A DNA stretch of 64,000 nt, from positions 51,962 to 115,961 of the forward strand of contig WRIS01000006.1 of the NCBI GenBank assembly GCA_009782615.1. Direction: 5' to 3'. The notes under the pieces are model-generated. The model ran no database searches. It was not told the DNA's origin and saw nothing but the letters and a program-made list of their open reading frames with translations. Of this stretch, positions 1 to 19,544 are shown in pieces (within the stretch, counting starts at the first letter, position 1; each line of letters opens with the position of its first letter). The DNA comes from Eggerthellaceae bacterium (GTDB taxonomy: Bacteria > Actinomycetota > Coriobacteriia > Coriobacteriales > Eggerthellaceae). The position numbers and the translations under genes are program-made.

Positions 1-1639
1 TGATGTGCCCCGCCGAATTGACAGAAGCACGGTCTTGAATAATTTCTTTATCAGGCAAAAGACCACTGCTCCTGAATTGATACAAGACCTTCTTTTGTGC
101 ATACATCATCGCGTCGGCTTCTGAGAGTACCTCGTTGTAAGATTGGTCGACCGAATCCATCACGGCATAGCCCCACGAAAGGCTTGGCGAACCAAACACC
201 TCGTGCTTGACCTGTTCGCACAGGGCCGCGGTCGCTTTGATGAAGGATTCAGCAACTTCTTTGCTTCCCCGAGGCAAGAGCAAGACAAATTCATCCCCAC
301 CAACGCGCGCAACAAAGGCGTTTTCGTCAACAGCTTGGGAAATGATGTCTGAAACAATCGTAAGTAAGCGATCGCCGACTAAATGTCCGTGAGTGTCGTT
401 GATTTGCTTGAGATGATTCACATCGCCTACCAAAATCAACAGCGGCATATTTTCTGCCTTTATGGTCTCTGAAACATGCGTGATGTAGGCGTTGCGGTTG
501 TAAAGTTTGGTAAGCGTATCGAGGTACGCAATTTCTTCAAAGTAGCGAAGCGTAGTATAGATGGGAGAAACTTCCGTAACCTCTACGATGTAGCCGAAGT
601 GCTTCTTTGTTGTTTTGGCTTCATGGATTTGCAGCAAGAAGTGCATTTCTTGTTCGTCGGTCATAAGGGTGAGGATGTTTTCGTTGTGGGGCGAAACGCG
701 ATAGCCGCCTTCTGCAAGCAATCGCTGACGATAGGCTTCGAACGATTCTCTGAACAGGGGTTTTAGCAAAGGAATTTCTTTCCCTGAGCCTTTTTTATTC
801 CAGTCCAAGATGCGCATAGTGCGGCTGAGCACCAAAATGGTGGTCGCTAAAGAACCCACCACGAATTCGCGTGAAGTTACAATAACGTCAGATGCGGGCA
901 TAAATCGCAACGCTTCGAAAAGCGGATAGAGTACGCAGAAAAAGACGACAGGAGCGGCAAGCAGCAAGACTATGTTCAGCGCTTCGGTTTGAGGAAGAAG
1001 CGGGGCGATTTGCTCATGCCAAAGAAAGCTGAGCGTTACGAAGAAAACGAGCATGGAAATGCTGAAAAGCATGAAACGGGTGGAGCGCTTCATGCGCGGA
1101 GGCATATGATAAAACACGTTAAAACAAAGAAGATACGCCTTCACTAAAACGGCGATGGCATACACGAAAAAGATGAACTTAGAGTATTGTTGAGCATGAT
1201 AGGCAGCCACAAAACTATTGATGGCTTGCGGGAAAAAGGTATCCTGAAGAAGCATTACGATGAGAAAAGCGGGGGGCACAAAGAGAAGAACAAAGACGAG
1301 CGGTCCTTTGTTCTTATAAGAAACCTGTTGCCAAACGTGAAGGCACAGCAAAGCTGGGGTGAGATACATTCCAATGTTGCTGAGCGCTTTGAACGTTTGA
1401 GCAAAAGACCCTTCGGCAAAAAACGAAAGAGCCGAAAAAAGCGCCCACACGAAAACCGCCGCACACAGCCAAATGAAATACGTACAATCCCAAAGCTTTT
1501 TCACGCGTTTGCGCAAGGCAAACAAAAGAAAAATAAGAGCGAACAGGCAAAGAAGCCCAAAAGAGACCTTGCTCAAAAGATTTCCGCTGAAGAGGAAATC
1601 AGGAAACTGAGAAGTAACGCTTTGAAGCGAACTGTCCAT
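1..1639 (-). CDS. Membrane diguanylate cyclase (GGDEF), C-terminus cut by window edge
   Basis: Read from the minus strand, an open frame starts at the ATG at 1639 (AAAAGG seven bases upstream) and runs off the left edge after 546 codons. The first ~230 residues hold about seven hydrophobic segments, resembling the 7TM sensor region of histidine kinases and cyclases. A linker follows, then a GGDEF domain with LTKLYNRNAY, GDVNHLKQINDTHGHLVGD and an intact VGGDEF signature, so it should make c-di-GMP from two GTP at the membrane. The visible end lies past the GGDEF core; another domain outside the window cannot be excluded. A TATAAT hexamer lies upstream at 1734-1739 without a clear -35 box. The acyltransferase at 1930 is divergent. 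Relevant neighbour: a c-di-GMP riboswitch at about 17.9 kb. Confidence 0.9.
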   Translation of the reverse strand, partial: MDSSLQSVTSQFPDFLFSGNLLSKVSFGLLCLFALIFLLFALRKRVKKLWDCTYFIWLCAAVFVWALFSALSFFAEGSFAQTFKALSNIGMYLTPALLCLHVWQQVSYKNKGPLVFVLLFVPPAFLIVMLLQDTFFPQAINSFVAAYHAQQYSKFIFFVYAIAVLVKAYLLCFNVFYHMPPRMKRSTRFMLFSISMLVFFVTLSFLWHEQIAPLLPQTEALNIVLLLAAPVVFFCVLYPLFEALRFMPASDVIVTSREFVVGSLATTILVLSRTMRILDWNKKGSGKEIPLLKPLFRESFEAYRQRLLAEGGYRVSPHNENILTLMTDEQEMHFLLQIHEAKTTKKHFGYIVEVTEVSPIYTTLRYFEEIAYLDTLTKLYNRNAYITHVSETIKAENMPLLILVGDVNHLKQINDTHGHLVGDRLLTIVSDIISQAVDENAFVARVGGDEFVLLLPRGSKEVAESFIKATAALCEQVKHEVFGSPSLSWGYAVMDSVDQSYNEVLSEADAMMYAQKKVLYQFRSSGLLPDKEIIQDRASVNSAGHI

Positions 1640-1929
1640 GGGCACCTTTTCTTCAAAGAATCATTGCTGAGGGAGCAAAAAACTCACACGGAAAACTCCC
1701 CAAGAATTCCTCTATTACCACCTTTGTTTGTCCATTATATGATTAAACGCTTCTTTTCAGCAATAAAAATCGGATATAAACAAGTCAACTATTGCCTAAC
1801 ACACAGGTAAAACGCATGGAAATCTGTTATTGTTGCGAGTGATTCAACCCCTCAATGGTAAGATTGTTTCGATGCATCATCCAAGGGTACTTGCCTGAGC
1901 TACGTTGACGCAAGAGGGAAAGGTGGGGT

Positions 1930-13797: not shown

Positions 13798-15146
13798 TAC
13801 ATCTCTCCCATCTGCGTTTCGAGGAAGTCCGTCGAAAACGTACCTTTATTAAATGCCTCATTTTCCAATACTTTGAGATGAAATGGAATCGTTGTCGCAA
13901 TTCCTTCTATCTTAAATTCTTGTAATGCTCGTTTCGCGCGAGCGATAACTTCTTGTCGGTCTTGTCCGTAAACAATCAATTTCGCCACGAGCGAATCATA
14001 GAAAGGCGATATCTTTGAACCTGATTTCACGTAACAATCGGTGCGAACCCCTGGTCCCGAAGGTGCCTCAAACACCGTAATGGTGCCAGGGCACGGTCTG
14101 AAGTTGTAATCGGGATCTTCGGCATTGATTCTGAATTCCATGGCGTGCCCAAACGGAGCAAACGGCGCACGAGGAGCGCACGACATCGCCTCACCCGAAG
14201 CGATGCGCAGCTGTTCTTTGACGATGTCGGTACCAGTCACCAATTCGGTCACGGGATGTTCAACTTGAATGCGCGTGTTCATTTCCATGAAATAGAAACG
14301 CCCGTCTTGGTCAAGCAAAAATTCGATAGTGCCCGCATTCTTATAGTCGGTCGCGCGCACCGCCTTAATTGCCGCAACTCCCATGGCACGACGGATTTCG
14401 TCGGTGAGGGCTGGGCTGGGGGCTTCTTCGATAAGTTTTTGATGGCGGCGCTGAATCGAACAATCGCGCTCACACAAAGAAACGTTGTTGTCGAAATTGT
14501 CGGCAAGTACCTGAATTTCCACATGACGCGGACGCAACACCAACTTTTCAAGATAGACACTGTCGTTGCCAAAGGCGGCTCCTGCTTCAAGGCGCGCAGC
14601 CTTGTACTGGATTTCCAGTTCTTCGGGTTGATGCACTTCGCGCATGCCCTTGCCACCGCCACCTGCGGTCGCCTTAATCAGTACAGGAAAGCCCACTTCT
14701 TTGGCGAATTTCGCCGCTTCTTCAGCGGTGTCAACGCAGCCGTCAGAGCCAGGTACCGTAGGCACGCCACAGCTTTTCATGGTTTCACGCGCGGCGCTTT
14801 TGTCGCCCATGCGTTCAATGCTTTCGGGGGCAGGACCTATGAAAACGATGCCGTTATCGGCGCAAGCGCGAGCAAAGTCAGCATTTTCTGCCAAGAAGCC
14901 ATAGCCAGGATGGATAGCATCAGCATTGGTGTTCTTGGCAGCGGCAATAATGTTAGCGGCCACCAAATAGCTTGAAGCAGCTGGTGCTGGTCCGATGCAC
15001 ACCGCTTCATCGGCGTATTTCACGGGATACGTGTCGGCATCTTCCAGGGAATAGACCGCAACCGTCTTAACGCCCAATTCTTTGCAGGCGCGCATAACCC
15101 GCAGCGCTATTTCGCCGCGATTCGCGACCAATACTTTTTCAAACAT
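13797..15146 (-). CDS. accC: Biotin carboxylase subunit
   Basis: The 449-residue protein has the normal length and all AccC landmarks: KVLVANRGEIALRVMRACKELG at the N-terminus, the ATP-grasp glycine loop KATAGGGGKGMR, EKLVLRPRHVEIQVLAD, the FYFMEMNTRIQVEHPVTE catalytic block and INAEDP near the end. It carboxylates biotin using ATP and bicarbonate. The only carrier in the window is the BCCP domain fused to the carboxyltransferase immediately upstream, whose stop overlaps this start by one base, so the two very probably form a pyruvate carboxylase-type or decarboxylase-type enzyme. Confidence 0.96.
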   Translation of the reverse strand: MFEKVLVANRGEIALRVMRACKELGVKTVAVYSLEDADTYPVKYADEAVCIGPAPAASSYLVAANIIAAAKNTNADAIHPGYGFLAENADFARACADNGIVFIGPAPESIERMGDKSAARETMKSCGVPTVPGSDGCVDTAEEAAKFAKEVGFPVLIKATAGGGGKGMREVHQPEELEIQYKAARLEAGAAFGNDSVYLEKLVLRPRHVEIQVLADNFDNNVSLCERDCSIQRRHQKLIEEAPSPALTDEIRRAMGVAAIKAVRATDYKNAGTIEFLLDQDGRFYFMEMNTRIQVEHPVTELVTGTDIVKEQLRIASGEAMSCAPRAPFAPFGHAMEFRINAEDPDYNFRPCPGTITVFEAPSGPGVRTDCYVKSGSKISPFYDSLVAKLIVYGQDRQEVIARAKRALQEFKIEGIATTIPFHLKVLENEAFNKGTFSTDFLETQMGEM

Positions 15147-17041
15147 TATGCTGTCTCCGGCACAGGAGCAGGTGCTCCGTGAGGTTCAATATAGAAAAGC
15201 ACGGTGCCAAATTCCACCATGGTTGCGTCTTTGAGGCAAATTTCACGAACCGTACCGATTTCTTCGGCGGTTATTTCGTTCATGAGCTTCATCGCTTCAA
15301 TGATGCACAAAGTTTGGGTCGCCGTTACTTCGTCGCCCACGTTGACGAAAGGTGGTTCCCCTGGAGCTGGCGCCATGTAGAACGTGCCTACCATTTTGGA
15401 AGTAATTGGTTGCCAAGTTGCGGGGCGGTCAACCGCATCTTCGCTGACAGCAGCCGCACTCGGTTCAGCAGCAGCTTCAGCTGTTTCGGCAATCGGAGTA
15501 ACGCCGCCTATCGGAACCGCAGCTTCGCCAATCGCAACACCTGGCATGCGAACCGAAATGCGCGTTCCTTCTTCTTCTACGATTATCTCGCCAACGCCTG
15601 TTTCCTCGATGACGCGCGCGAGTTCACGAATTTGATTGATATCCACGTAATCTTCCTCCTTGGTATTGCTCGATTCTTGCGGCATCAGAAAATCAACCCG
15701 CTCTGACGTGCGGTGCTTACTGAGATAGGTACGCGCTTCATTCGGGAACAACGCATACATCAATACATCTTCTTCGGTCTTTGCCAAATCGCCGATTTCT
15801 TCTTTCATCTGCTCATAGGTCGTTGTAACCAAAGAGCCTGGCGCGACATCGGGTGGTAAGACATCGGAATCTCCCACAACCTTCTTGACAATTTCCTTGT
15901 CCATGGGACCAGGCGCCTTGCCGTAATACCCGCAGATATAATCCTTCATTTCTCGGGAAACAACGCTCCAGCGCTTGCCCGTCAACACGTTGAACACCGC
16001 TTGCGTACCCACGATTTGGGATAAGGGGGTCACGAGTGGCGGATAGCCGACTTCGGCACGAACCTTCGGGATTTCTTTCATGACTTCATCAAGGCGGTCG
16101 CCCGCATTTTGTACTTCCAGCTGCGAGACAAGGTTACTCATCATGCCACCTGGCACCTGATGCGAATAAACCTGCATATGGATAAGCGACGAAACTCCGC
16201 GTTTGTAGTGCCCGCGCTTGCGAACCTCTTCCCAATATTCAGCAATTTCAAAGAGAAGTTCCAGGTCGAGCCCTGTATCGTAGCGGCTTTCCTGCAGTGC
16301 TGCAACAATCATCTCAACCGCAGGATGGCTGTTACCAAACGCAAGCGGTGCGTGTGCCGTATCAGCGATAGCAGCGCCCGCTTCAGCGGCTTTAAGAATG
16401 TTTGCTGGCGCCATACCGCCGACATAGTGGCAATGAATGTGAATCGGCAGTCCGATTTCGGCGTTAAATGCCTTTACCATGCGCTCGGTTCGATACGGGG
16501 TGAGCATGCCAGCCATATCCTTAATGCAGATAGAATCAGCGCCTAAGCTTTTGAGCGCCTGACCGTATTCAAGATAGCTGTCAAGGGTGTGTACGGGGGA
16601 CATGGTATAAGAAATTGCCCCTTCGAAATGCCCGCCGTGTTCTTTGATGGCATCGGCATTGTCAACAACGTTGCGGATGTCGTTTAAGGCATCGAACACG
16701 CGAAACACTTCGACACCGTTGCGATGAGCCGCGTTAATGAAATGATTTACGATGTCGCGGGAATAGTGCTTATATCCCACGAGGTTTTGCCCACGGGAAA
16801 GCATGGAAAGCGGCGTATTTGGTGTTTTCGCCTTGATGGAGCGCAAACGCTCCCATGGATTCTCGTCGAGAAAACGCAGGCAGGTATCAAACGTTGCCCC
16901 ACCCCACGCTTCAATAGCCCAATACCCGACACGGTCCATCTTCGGCAAAATAGGCAGCATGTCGCCAATCTGCATACGCGTAGCCCAAAGGCTTTGCTGA
17001 CCGTCGCGGATAGTGGTATCCATTATTTGAAGTCTCGGCAT
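15146..17041 (-). CDS. OadA/PycB-type carboxyltransferase fused to an AccB-like biotin carrier
   Basis: Of the 631 residues, ~1-460 are the carboxyltransferase of oxaloacetate decarboxylase alpha/pyruvate carboxylase B: DTTIRDGQQSLWATRM, the active-site CIKDMAGMLTPY, and HIHCHYVGG with metal-binding histidines. Residues ~475-515 (VDINQIRELARVIEETG, then IIVEEEGTRISVRMP) match the N-terminal segment of AccB, not the usual OadA linker. After a Pro/Ala-rich hinge comes a biotinyl domain with EAMKLMNE, biotin on Lys585. The start ATG at 17041 follows an AAGGGGG site. With AccC it should interconvert pyruvate and oxaloacetate. No OadB or OadG sodium-pump gene is visible here, which favours carboxylation over sodium-linked decarboxylation. 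Confidence 0.9.
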   Translation of the reverse strand: MPRLQIMDTTIRDGQQSLWATRMQIGDMLPILPKMDRVGYWAIEAWGGATFDTCLRFLDENPWERLRSIKAKTPNTPLSMLSRGQNLVGYKHYSRDIVNHFINAAHRNGVEVFRVFDALNDIRNVVDNADAIKEHGGHFEGAISYTMSPVHTLDSYLEYGQALKSLGADSICIKDMAGMLTPYRTERMVKAFNAEIGLPIHIHCHYVGGMAPANILKAAEAGAAIADTAHAPLAFGNSHPAVEMIVAALQESRYDTGLDLELLFEIAEYWEEVRKRGHYKRGVSSLIHMQVYSHQVPGGMMSNLVSQLEVQNAGDRLDEVMKEIPKVRAEVGYPPLVTPLSQIVGTQAVFNVLTGKRWSVVSREMKDYICGYYGKAPGPMDKEIVKKVVGDSDVLPPDVAPGSLVTTTYEQMKEEIGDLAKTEEDVLMYALFPNEARTYLSKHRTSERVDFLMPQESSNTKEEDYVDINQIRELARVIEETGVGEIIVEEEGTRISVRMPGVAIGEAAVPIGGVTPIAETAEAAAEPSAAAVSEDAVDRPATWQPITSKMVGTFYMAPAPGEPPFVNVGDEVTATQTLCIIEAMKLMNEITAEEIGTVREICLKDATMVEFGTVLFYIEPHGAPAPVPETA

Positions 17042-17233
17042 GAGATCACACCCCCTTCATTCGTCAGAGTCAAAGAACATACCTTTATTCTGAACAGGAT
17101 AAACGCTTTATGGGTCGCTCGTAATATCAGTCGAGCGCTCACCCGTTGAAGCGTTCATACAGATGCTTGGAAATCCAGAATCGGCACTGTGCATAAAAAG
17201 GTAATAAAGCATTATATAAGAAGGAAGGCAAAC

Positions 17234-17431
17234 ATGCTTGAAGTTGATATGAATCTCATGAATTTCATGGATGAAGGACTATTTTTTTGCATTTTTTTGG
17301 GGGGAGCGGAAAAGATTGAGGAAATACTTGAAGAAAATCTTGGCGAAAAGTCTCGAATTGCGGGCAGGGAGCGCAGGGCGAAGTGCGGGCGTAAAAAAGA
17401 GCGCAGGTATGGAAAATGCCGACCCCCCTAG
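17234..17431 (+). CDS. Doubtful small hypothetical protein
   Basis: A 65-residue frame starts at the ATG at 17234 behind AAGGAAGG and ends with a stop inside the loop of the hairpin at 17409-17448. It is acidic at first and Arg/Lys-rich at the end, with no recognised motif. It crosses two seven-T runs and a six-G run, where slippage is likely. It lies antisense to the proposed noncoding RNA, which may explain it as chance. I would not assign a function. Confidence 0.2.
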   Translation: MLEVDMNLMNFMDEGLFFCIFLGGAEKIEEILEENLGEKSRIAGRERRAKCGRKKERRYGKCRPP

Positions 17432-17448
17432 CTGTCGGCATTTTCCAT
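17409..17448 (-). terminator. Hairpin Hp5 with CUAGGGG loop, probable 3' end of the noncoding RNA
   Basis: Fifteen perfect base pairs (arms 17409-17423 and 17434-17448) enclose a ten-base loop that reads AGCTAGGGGG on the minus strand. The core CTAGGGG is the same as in the loops of the hairpins at 17562-17658. The stem contains an ATTTTCC run, so it can terminate in either direction. Confidence 0.6.
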
Positions 17449-17484
17449 CATTCTTTCTCTACGTTGTGAGAACGTAATTTGAGT

Positions 17485-17658
17485 GCTGCTTACCACCCCT
17501 GATAAGCAGCTCACCCCTATTCACCCCTTTCACCTCTATTCACCTGTGGGCTTTTTGAAAGCCATACTGGCGCACCCCTAGCACACCAGTATGGAGACAA
17601 TCGCTACACCCCTAGTACACCGATGTCTGAGTATCGGCGCACCCCTAGCACACCGATA
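17485..17658 (-). repeat. Hairpin array Hp4-Hp1 displaying UAGGGGU/AGGGGU loops
   Basis: Hp1 spans 17632-17658, Hp2 17596-17627, Hp3 17562-17594 and Hp4 17485-17510. Hp1-Hp3 repeat at 33-34 bases. Outer stems differ in sequence (TATCGG, GACATCG-like, CCATACTGG) but stay paired. An inner three-pair stem changes from UGC/GCG to UAC/GUA with pairing kept, and the heptaloop UAGGGGU is identical in all three. Hp4 has a ten-pair stem and an AGGGGU loop. Between Hp3 and Hp4, 17512-17547 carries four unpaired GGTGA-type repeats about ten bases apart. All coordinates refer to RNA read from the minus strand. Confidence 0.8.
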
Positions 17659-17674
17659 TTCGCTTTCAGGCTTG

Positions 17675-17714
17675 GCAGGTAGTGCCTGGTGTGGCGTCCA
17701 GGCACACTACCTGC
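17675..17714 (-). repeat. Long hairpin HpA
   Basis: Arms GCAGGTAGTGCCTGG (17675-17689) and CCAGGCACACTACCTGC (17698-17714) pair fully except for a two-base bulge, with an eight-base loop. It lacks the AGGGG loop of the following hairpins and may mark the 5' border of the array. Confidence 0.7.
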
Positions 17715-17794
17715 AAGAACGCTGCTGAAAAGAGCGCGCGCTATTTGAGGAAGGATTTGGGTTAGTGGTAGTAGTTCTGAGAATGGTTTGAGCA

Positions 17795-17818
17795 TAAAAA
17801 ATGCCGCTCGGTGGCGGC
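17795..17818 (-). terminator. Terminator-like hairpin T2 in the riboswitch leader
   Basis: The minus strand has GCCGC/GCGGC around a six-base loop followed by A and six T residues. The stem is short, but the U tract is typical. It lies inside a larger closed domain formed by GGGTTAG/CTAACCC and GTTCTGA/TCAGAAC (17759-17862), which could compete with it. Confidence 0.5.
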
Positions 17819-17863
17819 TGGGAAGAATTTCCTTTCGCTCACCTTTTCAGAACAGCTAACCCA

Positions 17864-17900
17864 GTTAAGAAAAGATTGAAACAAAAGGAGGAGTTTCAAT
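17864..17900 (-). terminator. Terminator-like hairpin T1 directly after the c-di-GMP aptamer
   Basis: A perfect eight-base-pair stem, ATTGAAAC/GTTTCAAT (17875-17882 with 17893-17900), is followed on the minus strand by CTTTTCTT. It begins within a few bases of the 3' side of the aptamer, the usual position of a riboswitch expression platform. The stem is AT-rich, so its strength is uncertain. Confidence 0.5.
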
Positions 17901-17990
17901 GTTGCAACTGGCTGCCTTTCCGAGATCGGGGAAGGCCCTATAGCTTTGCGCCGCTGCCTTTCAGCAGGTTTGCCCGTTTGTTTTTGAAGG
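17897..17990 (-). promoter_or_regulatory. Cyclic di-GMP-I (GEMM) riboswitch aptamer
   Basis: The minus strand carries the family landmarks in order and at normal spacing. GGGCAAACC (17967-17975) comes first, then a short stem capped by a GAAA tetraloop, GCGCAAAGC (17943-17951), GGGCCT with its partner AGGC enclosing a stem loop, and finally AGCCAGTTGC (17904-17913). The G preceding CAAACC is kept, as in c-di-GMP-selective members; the cGAMP-selective variants known have A there. The intercalating A of GCAAAG is also kept. It should bind c-di-GMP in the nascent transcript. No ordinary protein gene follows for more than 800 bases before the OadA-BCCP gene at 17041. Confidence 0.85.
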
Positions 17991-18017
17991 TGCTGTCAAC
18001 TCTCATTGACAGGACAT

Positions 18018-18046
18018 ACTGTACGCCTCCCCTGCATCAAATGCAA
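18018..18046 (-). promoter_or_regulatory. Promoter of the riboswitch-led RNA
   Basis: The minus strand reads TTGCAT (18041-18046), a 17-base spacer and TACAGT (18018-18023). The predicted start near 18011 coincides with a perfect CTGTCAA/TTGACAG hairpin and lies about 20 bases upstream of the aptamer, consistent with a leader transcript. Confidence 0.55.
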
Positions 18047-18503
18047 GAGTTTCTGCGAAGATTTTCGCCGTGTTTCCAAGCTGTGAACAAAGGCATCTCA
18101 CCTGAACAAGCATGTTTTTCATTCATATTAATACCCGTGCATCAAAGGGCTTCACCTTCGCGCAAAAATGCATATTTTTCGTTATATTATGCATATTGGA
18201 AAATCGCATGAGCAGAGGGTCTTGGAAACGCAAAACAAGAGTTTTATTACGCGAAGGTAACGAGGAGCCACTGAAGGGAATCGGTACATGAGCAATTCTT
18301 CCTCGAAAACCCGCTAAAGACGCTTCGAAAGCCTTGCGAGCGCACTTGCCCTGTGTGGCTCTTTGGTGTTCTTTACCGATATTATCTTAGCTTATGCACA
18401 TTTCATGAGAGAAAAAACAATACAAATTTGCTATCCTTAAATGGTAAATTTGCGAGTATAATGCAGTACTATATATAGTAAGAACACTAAGGATTATTGC
18501 TTG
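18047..18503 (+). promoter_or_regulatory. Long leader/promoter region of the lysozyme-like gene
   Basis: No gene is visible. A TATAAT at 18457-18462 is a good -10 box, though no standard -35 accompanies it. A perfect 14-base palindrome, TACTATATATAGTA (18467-18480), sits at the expected start site and could be an operator. The stretch 18200-18370 is GC-richer and may fold, but I could not match it to a known riboswitch. Confidence 0.4.
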
Positions 18504-19544
18504 ATGCCACAAGTTATCGCGAAAAAGACAAAAATCTTTTTTCTGACTATTGCCCTTATTTGCGGGTTTGTGGTGGTCTCTCTCATAAACACCCCGACGG
18601 CTTTCGCCGACAATACCAATATTGACGAACTCCTCAGCGAAACTGGCGCACGGCTAGAAGAAACTGCCAAGGCTTACGACGAAGCCGTGACAAAGGTTGA
18701 AGCCCTCAAAAAAGAAATAGAGGACAACGAAAAGAAAATCAGCGAACTTGAAGCAGAAATTCCTGTGCAAGAGGAAAAAGGCGCGGTTGCCATGAAATCC
18801 CTCTATAAAAGGCAACAAGAAGGCTTTTCTCTCATCAATATGATCCTTGAGTCAAACAGCCTTGATGAATTCCTTTCTTCTATCGACTACATCAACACCA
18901 TCCATCAGTCAAACGTCAACGAAGTTGTTCGCCTGCGCGTCTTGAAAAGTGACTTAGAAGAAACCAAGCAAGCCTTAGAAGACAACAAAGCAGCAGCTGA
19001 TGCGGAAATGGTGCTTGCTCAAGAAACCTTAAAAGAAGCCCAGGAAGCACGCGAAGCAGCCCAGCGTCTAGCCGCCGAAGAAGCGGCACGTCGCGCAGCG
19101 GCACTTGATGCCGAAGCGCGTCAACAAAGCGGGGGCGGCATCGGCGGACCGATTGTTATAGGCGGAGTCGATTGGGCGCTCAGCCGTGATGAATTTGTCA
19201 ACGCCTGGGCAGCACGTATCGACGCTTATCTGGCAGGCTCTCCCCTTACGGGGCAAGGGCGCACCTTTGCAGCAGCCGCTTGGAACTACGGTGTTGACCC
19301 TCGATTCTCGCCTGCCATTTCTTGTATTGAAAGTTCCAAGGGAAGGTACTGCTTCTTGCAGCACAACGCCTGGGGCTGGGGTAACATCAGCTGGGGAAGC
19401 TGGGAAGATGCGATTGATACCCATGTCCGCGGGCTTGCCAATGGCTACGGTGGGACGGTGTCAGTCTGGGGTGCGCAGAAGTATTGTCCGCCCAACTGGG
19501 AACATTGGTATAGTTCTGTCAGCAGCGAAATGTCTCGCATTTAG
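18504..19544 (+). CDS. Secreted coiled-coil protein with lysozyme-like C-terminal domain
   Basis: I take the ATG at 18504 (346 aa); a TTG one codon earlier is equally spaced from AAGGA at 18489. A classical signal peptide (KKTKIFFLTIALICGFVVVSL, cleavage near AFA, without twin arginines) precedes a PcsB/CwlO-type coiled coil (~38-205). A glycine-rich hinge leads to a ~115-residue domain with FAAAAWNYGVDPRFSPAIS, CIESSKG and AWGWGNISWGSW. The Glu in CIES, ahead of the Trp-rich segment, fits a transglycosylase/glucosaminidase lysozyme-like fold. It probably cleaves glycan strands, complementing the NlpC/P60 paralogs whose coiled coil it resembles. No Cys/His NlpC triad is present. Confidence 0.85.
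   Translation: MPQVIAKKTKIFFLTIALICGFVVVSLINTPTAFADNTNIDELLSETGARLEETAKAYDEAVTKVEALKKEIEDNEKKISELEAEIPVQEEKGAVAMKSLYKRQQEGFSLINMILESNSLDEFLSSIDYINTIHQSNVNEVVRLRVLKSDLEETKQALEDNKAAADAEMVLAQETLKEAQEAREAAQRLAAEEAARRAAALDAEARQQSGGGIGGPIVIGGVDWALSRDEFVNAWAARIDAYLAGSPLTGQGRTFAAAAWNYGVDPRFSPAISCIESSKGRYCFLQHNAWGWGNISWGSWEDAIDTHVRGLANGYGGTVSVWGAQKYCPPNWEHWYSSVSSEMSRI

Follow-up and report, generated by a model that had tools for sequence, protein, structure and literature searches.

The gap between two divergent genes of an Eggerthellaceae genome (G000) carries, on its minus strand, a match to the c-di-GMP-I riboswitch followed by an array of hairpins that, judged by comparison with a second species (G001), is real and conserved. 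The array is best explained, tentatively, as part of a likely non-coding decoy, a c-di-GMP-gated RNA that would display several AGGGG sites to a partner, because it lies behind a riboswitch and a terminator, has a covarying branched fold, repeats its motif on diverging stems, and because the only nearby downstream gene, oadA, seems to have a promoter of its own. If a conserved c-di-GMP riboswitch does govern a structured non-coding RNA here, it would be a route from signal to trans regulation; the array could be used as bait for its partner, and its RNA would be a family without a match in Rfam 15.

Layout of the locus and structure of the hairpins

Within the window (the whole stretch of 64,000 nucleotides that was analyzed), about 1.4 kb separate the plus-strand ORF 18501-19544, which resembles a secreted protein by eye and gave no match above cut-off in a Pfam search, from the divergent oadA-like gene (17041-15146, minus strand), which lies 3' of the array. 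Read on the minus strand, this gap holds a promoter-like element, the riboswitch aptamer, an alternative-pairing region, a terminator-like hairpin with a T6 tract, the long hairpin P0, hairpins P2-P4 within a closing stem P1, a GGUGA linker, a fourth hairpin, hairpin P5 and a TATAAT-like block, after which oadA begins. The promoter-like element (TTGCAT-17-TACAGT, 18018..18046), 5' of the riboswitch, has the counterpart TTGCAT-17-TATGGT in G001; it is a weak consensus match and is absent from the promoter-scan listings. Just after it lies an inverted repeat, CTGTCAA..TTGACAG (18012-17993, minus strand), largely kept in G001, which is possibly an operator or a 5' hairpin. P0 (17671..17717, minus strand) forms in both species from very different stem sequences.

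The branched domain (17556..17668, minus strand) has 37 pairs in the alignment of the two species and comprises three hairpins enclosed by P1 (UGAAAG, 17668-17663, with CUUUCA, 17561-17556). These hairpins, P2 (17658-17632), P3 (17627-17596, with inner stem UAC/GUA) and P4 (17594-17562), are spaced 33-34 bases apart, with outer stems that differ yet pair and an identical UAGGGGU (17647-17641, 17614-17608 and 17580-17574, respectively), just as the initial annotation described them. Under a single-hairpin covariance model built from six hairpins, three from each species, they score 46.4, 39.1 and 47.0 bits; the six source hairpins span 36-48 bits, and the next best match in G000 and G001 scores 20.2 bits. 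Downstream lies a minus-strand linker (17545-17511) with AGGUGA, GAGGUGA, GGGGUGA and GGGGUGA. Such repeats had been described between the hairpins and are there in G000, but they align in G001 with a differing linker that lacks them; likewise, the fourth hairpin does have the AGGGGU loop ascribed to it (GCUGCUUA-UC-AGGGGU-GG-UAAGCAGC, 17510-17485), but it falls in a 63-column alignment gap of G001. The terminal hairpin P5 (17448-17409), the fifth of the earlier description, consists of 15 perfect pairs closed by the loop AGCUAGGGGG. Over P5 runs a short frame, ATGATGGAAAATGCCGACAGCTAG (MMENADS-stop, 17451-17428, minus strand), whose G001 counterpart ends in ADS-stop; it is possibly a mere by-product of the conserved stem. 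Loosely defined AGGGG hairpins number 14 in the window, where single shuffles give 1-14; their number alone is ordinary, and the long stems and clustering are unusual.

Folding of the 411-nt RNA gives a z score of -5.5 for the minus strand and -4.7 for the plus strand, and the G001 counterpart reaches -8.3. The claim that U-G pairs form on the minus strand only was borne out: across both species all 74 pair cells of the branched domain form on that strand, compared with 67/74 on the plus strand, where its seven GU cells become mismatches.

Two registers fit the six hairpins: the heptaloop with a 2-nt UG bulge originally proposed, and an AGG triloop on a 12-bp stem. The heptaloop register accounts for 51/54 paired cells (94.4%) with four double-change pairs, but the triloop register accounts for 69/72 (95.8%) with three, and where the two energies were evaluated, in four hairpins, its advantage was 7.2 kcal/mol every time; the remaining two hairpins likewise have a triloop in their minimum-energy fold. 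In each species the middle hairpin is mismatched at a position that is G-C in the other four. Since the triloop stem is energetically favored, a free AGGGG heptaloop with a bulge is not secure, and this pairing of part of the motif in the predicted stable register counts against the decoy reading. The loop was also called invariant; UAGGGGU does hold in all three G000 hairpins, but the middle loop of G001 reads UCGGGGU, a single change of A to C, while GGGG is present in all six. The clean hexaloop AGGGGU is seen only in the hairpin at 17510-17485, which G001 does not share. That four GGGG-bearing hairpins occur in both species, and that GGGG persists even next to a changed A, would suit a self-assembly in which the four loops join as a G-quadruplex or through loop-loop contacts; with only two species to go by, and with predicted stems that pair part of the Gs, such an assembly is very improbable.

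Conservation in a second species and distribution across genomes

G001 is contig WRIR01000004.1 of the Eggerthellaceae MAG Nt197P3bin52, a member of the same genus from termite gut; Nt197 denotes Neocapritermes taracua (PMC7024585). In a search of 60 relatives it was the only match with E below 0.001, G000 itself aside. The order of elements is the same in both species: riboswitch, terminator, P0, P1-P4, P5 and oadA. All 37 pairs of the branched domain form in both, eight of them changed on both sides and three on one, and when the partners are slid by one to three columns the double changes fall to 0-1 and the paired cells to 31-49%. Shuffling is a coarse control with two sequences; 1/500 shuffles reaches the observed values. 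P5 keeps 15/15 pairs in G001, with two double changes and one single change and the loop AGCUAGGGG, so that four UAGGGG-type hairpins are common to both species. Within P2-P4, 1/21 loop positions and 19/74 paired positions have changed (Fisher p 0.065), which makes slower change of the loops a trend only. Together with the negative fold z scores and the strand-specific GU pairs, these features speak for the decoy, and the RNA reading, its strand and its link to the riboswitch, all put forward from G000 alone, are now backed by a second species. That only two species are available weighs on the other side.

The initial annotation named a covariance search for homologous arrays as a check, and such arrays are present, but narrowly. 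With the branched-domain model, G000 scores 142.8 bits and G001 134.6 bits, and strong matches are limited to these 2/138 family genomes; 15/138 have matches at E 1 or better, the 13 besides G000 and G001 scoring at most 26 bits, in a search with stricter filters that scored mostly 25 candidates per genome. The best of these weak matches (L043) was judged by eye to be noise. G002, the remaining genome of the genus at 77% completeness (the three range from 77 to 93%), gave no array match. Applied to 395 genomes of the order at an E cut-off of 0.05, the single-hairpin model gives a single match in each of 15 genomes beyond G000 and G001, which is about the chance expectation, and only G000 and G001 have several; because few candidates were scored per genome (18 in the rows listed, under stricter filters), weak relatives were possibly overlooked. 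A pattern of two tandem hairpins occurs in one stretch of the genome contigs, in the G001 MAG.

Several other identities were considered and set aside. Above the Rfam gathering score the window yields the c-di-GMP-I riboswitch and three tRNAs, and none of the five Rfam 15 matches at E up to 10 within 17041-18500 overlaps the array (17409-17717), which speaks against a known RNA family. A dispersed palindrome of the REP or MITE kind was rejected, since all that the single-hairpin model finds above noise in G000 and in G001 is the array's own three copies. A protein-coding repeat was rejected as well, because its frame is not conserved between the species: the alignment has gaps of 17, 3, 1 and 11 columns from terminator to array and another of 1 nt within the array. 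Phage and plasmid records were searched for a mobile origin and gave no match. A viral scan for one hairpin core returned 41 stretches. Two related phage contigs, partly similar to Roseobacter phages, have three tandem CTAGGGG(G)TG sites between genes (L057 530-566 and L058 943-979), the last of which can form GGGUAC-UAGGGGU-GUAUCC; the models give these 16.3 bits (E 0.016) and 13.8 bits (E 0.45), and they are taken as coincidence.

The riboswitch, its terminator and oadA

The aptamer (17900..17984, minus strand) matches the c-di-GMP-I riboswitch family (RF01051) with 62.4 bits and its G001 counterpart with 66.5, for a gathering score of 35. In the predicted folds of the expression-platform region (17861..17911, minus strand) alternative helices can be computed, among them one between CCAGTT (17911-17906) and AACTGG (17866-17861) that would enclose a terminator-like hairpin, ATTGAAAC/GTTTCAAT; CCAGTT and TAACTGG are identical in G001. 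There follows an intrinsic-terminator-like hairpin, GCCGCCACCGAGCGGC, with A and T6 (17796..17818, minus strand), whose equivalent in G001 is GCCGCCACCGGGCGGC-ATTTTTT, a GCCGCC..GGCGGC hairpin with a T6 tract. The computed alternative folds show no structure competing with this T6 terminator, so that c-di-GMP control of read-through stays a prediction, a point that counts against the decoy.

The mechanism proposed for a decoy would run as follows. A single transcript would start at the riboswitch promoter and cover the region; c-di-GMP would change read-through past the terminator, in one direction or the other, and the decoy RNA would be made when the riboswitch lets polymerase pass. P5 would mark its 3' end, and the repeated sites would titrate their target, either a protein or an RNA rich in C, the predicted factor being one that recognizes AGGGG. 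A bolder version, which we regard as possible but rather doubtful, is that this is the first c-di-GMP-riboswitch-controlled sponge RNA, of a new family, whose junction and P5 would present four GGGG sites to an undescribed class of regulator and so carry the signal to other genes in trans. Sources of the signal may be at hand: G000 has two GGDEF genes, one of them in the window (2..1645, minus strand; PF00990, E 5.7e-31) and likely a c-di-GMP synthase, and G001 has two, while a search of the 77% complete G002 found none. This distribution matches that of the array and favors the decoy.

To our knowledge, c-di-GMP riboswitches have been described so far as sitting 5' of genes. Across the family, RF01051 occurs at 20 places in 14/138 genomes, and at 13 of the 20, with ORFs called mechanically, an ORF of at least 374 aa starts within 135 nt of the aptamer. 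The distance from aptamer end to oadA is 858 nt in G000 and 655 nt in G001, which against those 13 loci also favors the decoy. Besides the two array loci, however, five of the 20 likewise lack a long ORF close by, which tempers that argument. Only the G000 and G001 loci, among the 20, have GGGGTG sites at 33-34 nt spacing downstream.

The main rival to the decoy is a cis-acting role, in which the array would be the 5' leader of an oadA operon, with riboswitch, terminators and hairpins all acting on the transcription, translation or mRNA stability of oadA. The gene 15146..17041 we take to be oadA, a name based on its translation; its orthologs are 89% identical behind the G001 array and 87% identical in G002. 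In both species oadA follows the array in the same orientation, P5 ending 367 nt from the gene in G000 and 230 nt in G001, and a search for a U-tract terminator after P5 in G001 found none. This leaves the 3' end of the array RNA uncertain and counts both for a leader and against the decoy. The ribosome-binding site of oadA (AATGAAGGGGGTGTGATCTCATG, 17061-17039, minus strand), at -20.9 kcal/mol the strongest match to the anti-Shine-Dalgarno (anti-SD) sequence among 50 mechanically called ORFs, also fits a leader; it shares its richness in G with the array motif, and G001 has a similar one. Against these points stands the TATAAT at 17211..17216 (minus strand), between array and oadA, which on its sequence is likely a separate oadA promoter: CTTATATAATG and TATTACCTTTTT are kept in G001, although the block does not appear in the promoter-scan listings. 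In addition, the oadA of G002, behind an ORF that presumably encodes elongation factor P, has no riboswitch or array match upstream, as the decoy reading would have it, and 19 further oadA loci that were scanned have no RF01051 match. A leader function is rated unlikely.

Candidate partners and comparison with known systems

Binding of 30S subunits, raised in the initial annotation as possible, can be gauged from duplex energies with the anti-SD sequence, for which random 20-mers give -9.0 kcal/mol at the 5% level and -11.4 kcal/mol at the 1% level. On this scale a value of about -9 kcal/mol, at the 5% level, belongs to the three conserved arms, and one of -11.4 kcal/mol, at the 1% level, to the conserved P5 loop; elements found in G000 alone go further, with -12.0 kcal/mol for the fourth hairpin and -13.5 to -16.5 kcal/mol for the four linker sites. 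Shine-Dalgarno mimicry, in which G-rich sites would hold 30S subunits or the anti-SD, has in its favor that GGGGUG(A) can pair with the anti-SD with one G-U and that the predicted energies reach the 1% level and beyond. The best of them, however, sit in elements restricted to G000, so that the strongest sites are not conserved; at about -9 kcal/mol the reading is weak for the arms, which would need opening besides; and the better AGGAGG is present in none of the sites. Binding of 30S subunits is possible, and mimicry as an account of the array is quite improbable.

A second way of acting in trans would be base pairing, the RNA being a sponge for an antisense RNA, or itself one, through AGGGGU against ACCCCU. 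GGGG is kept in loops that are exposed or able to become so, its display is multivalent, and RNA-binding proteins of the two families tested were not found. No partner RNA emerged, on the other hand, and CTAGGGG is not enriched on either strand of the G000 genome (its 32 sites compare with 46 of the reversed control; of the 30 inspected, four belong to the array). Pairing in trans is improbable. The decoy reading suffers from the same want of enrichment, and also from the fact that the hairpin recurs nowhere else in G000 or G001 above noise (E 0.2 for the best other match). Eleven weak single-hairpin matches in five genomes were considered as trans targets; 10 of them fall in or overlap mechanically called ORFs and look like noise. 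At G000:C2:183918 (L070 1497-1513), a GerE (LuxR-type) regulator gene with its start codon at 1519 has a 5-bp hairpin with a UAGGGGU loop at its ribosome-binding site; this hairpin was rejected as a target, being missing upstream of the G001 ortholog and from the local minimum-energy fold, and its absence in G001 is a further point against the decoy. An array-like bulged hairpin, UCCUA-UUG-CC-UAGGGGU-GG-UAGGA, lies between two convergent gene ends at G000:C2:178609 (minus strand; L069, around 1500).

CsrB and RsmZ are sponge RNAs with multiple similar hairpins that carry a repeated G-rich motif. The array resembles them in this respect, and the initial annotation drew the same parallel, which stands as an analogy at most: the array loops read UAGGGGU, UCGGGGU, AGGGGU and AGCUAGGGG(G), with AGGGG in place of GGA, which occurs in none of the P2-P5 loops of either species; there is no Csr or Rsm family among the Rfam matches at E up to 10 in 17041-18500; and CsrA was found in 0/3 genomes of the genus (77-93% complete) by a search that detects it in E. 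coli, B. subtilis and T. maritima (3/14 controls). For ANTAR proteins, the hexaloop rule for targets asks for A at position 1 and G at position 4 (PMC3369931), the hexaloops coming in pairs. AGGGGU would fit this rule and the multivalent loops recall CsrB, but C replaces A in the middle G001 loop, and ANTAR proteins were found in 0/3 genomes of the genus by a search positive in 10/60 genomes (0/14 control genomes). An ANTAR decoy was accordingly rejected, and a strict sponge of the CsrA type or decoy of the ANTAR type is scarcely credible; the failure to find either candidate partner family in the genus counts against the decoy in general.

Within the open PMC literature, judged by title and the start of the abstract, a c-di-GMP-riboswitch-controlled sponge RNA was not found. 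The c-di-GMP-I riboswitch Bc1 of the B. cereus group is associated with two terminators and downstream genes (PMC11218506). To that extent the present locus is similar, with a c-di-GMP-I aptamer and then two terminator-like hairpins; unlike in Bc1, a structured RNA comes next, and oadA, on the same strand, is 655-858 nt from the aptamer.

EutX and Rli55, two ANTAR decoy RNAs, are under the control of an AdoCbl riboswitch. The array differs from them in having a c-di-GMP-I aptamer, in holding three arms in a closed junction with further hairpins besides, and in its UAGGGGU loop or AGG triloop, with no ANTAR protein found. Hairpins of EutX and Rli55 sequester a regulator (PMC8934654), and the array would be like them in being a riboswitch-gated non-coding RNA that shows short hairpins, the gating here being predicted.
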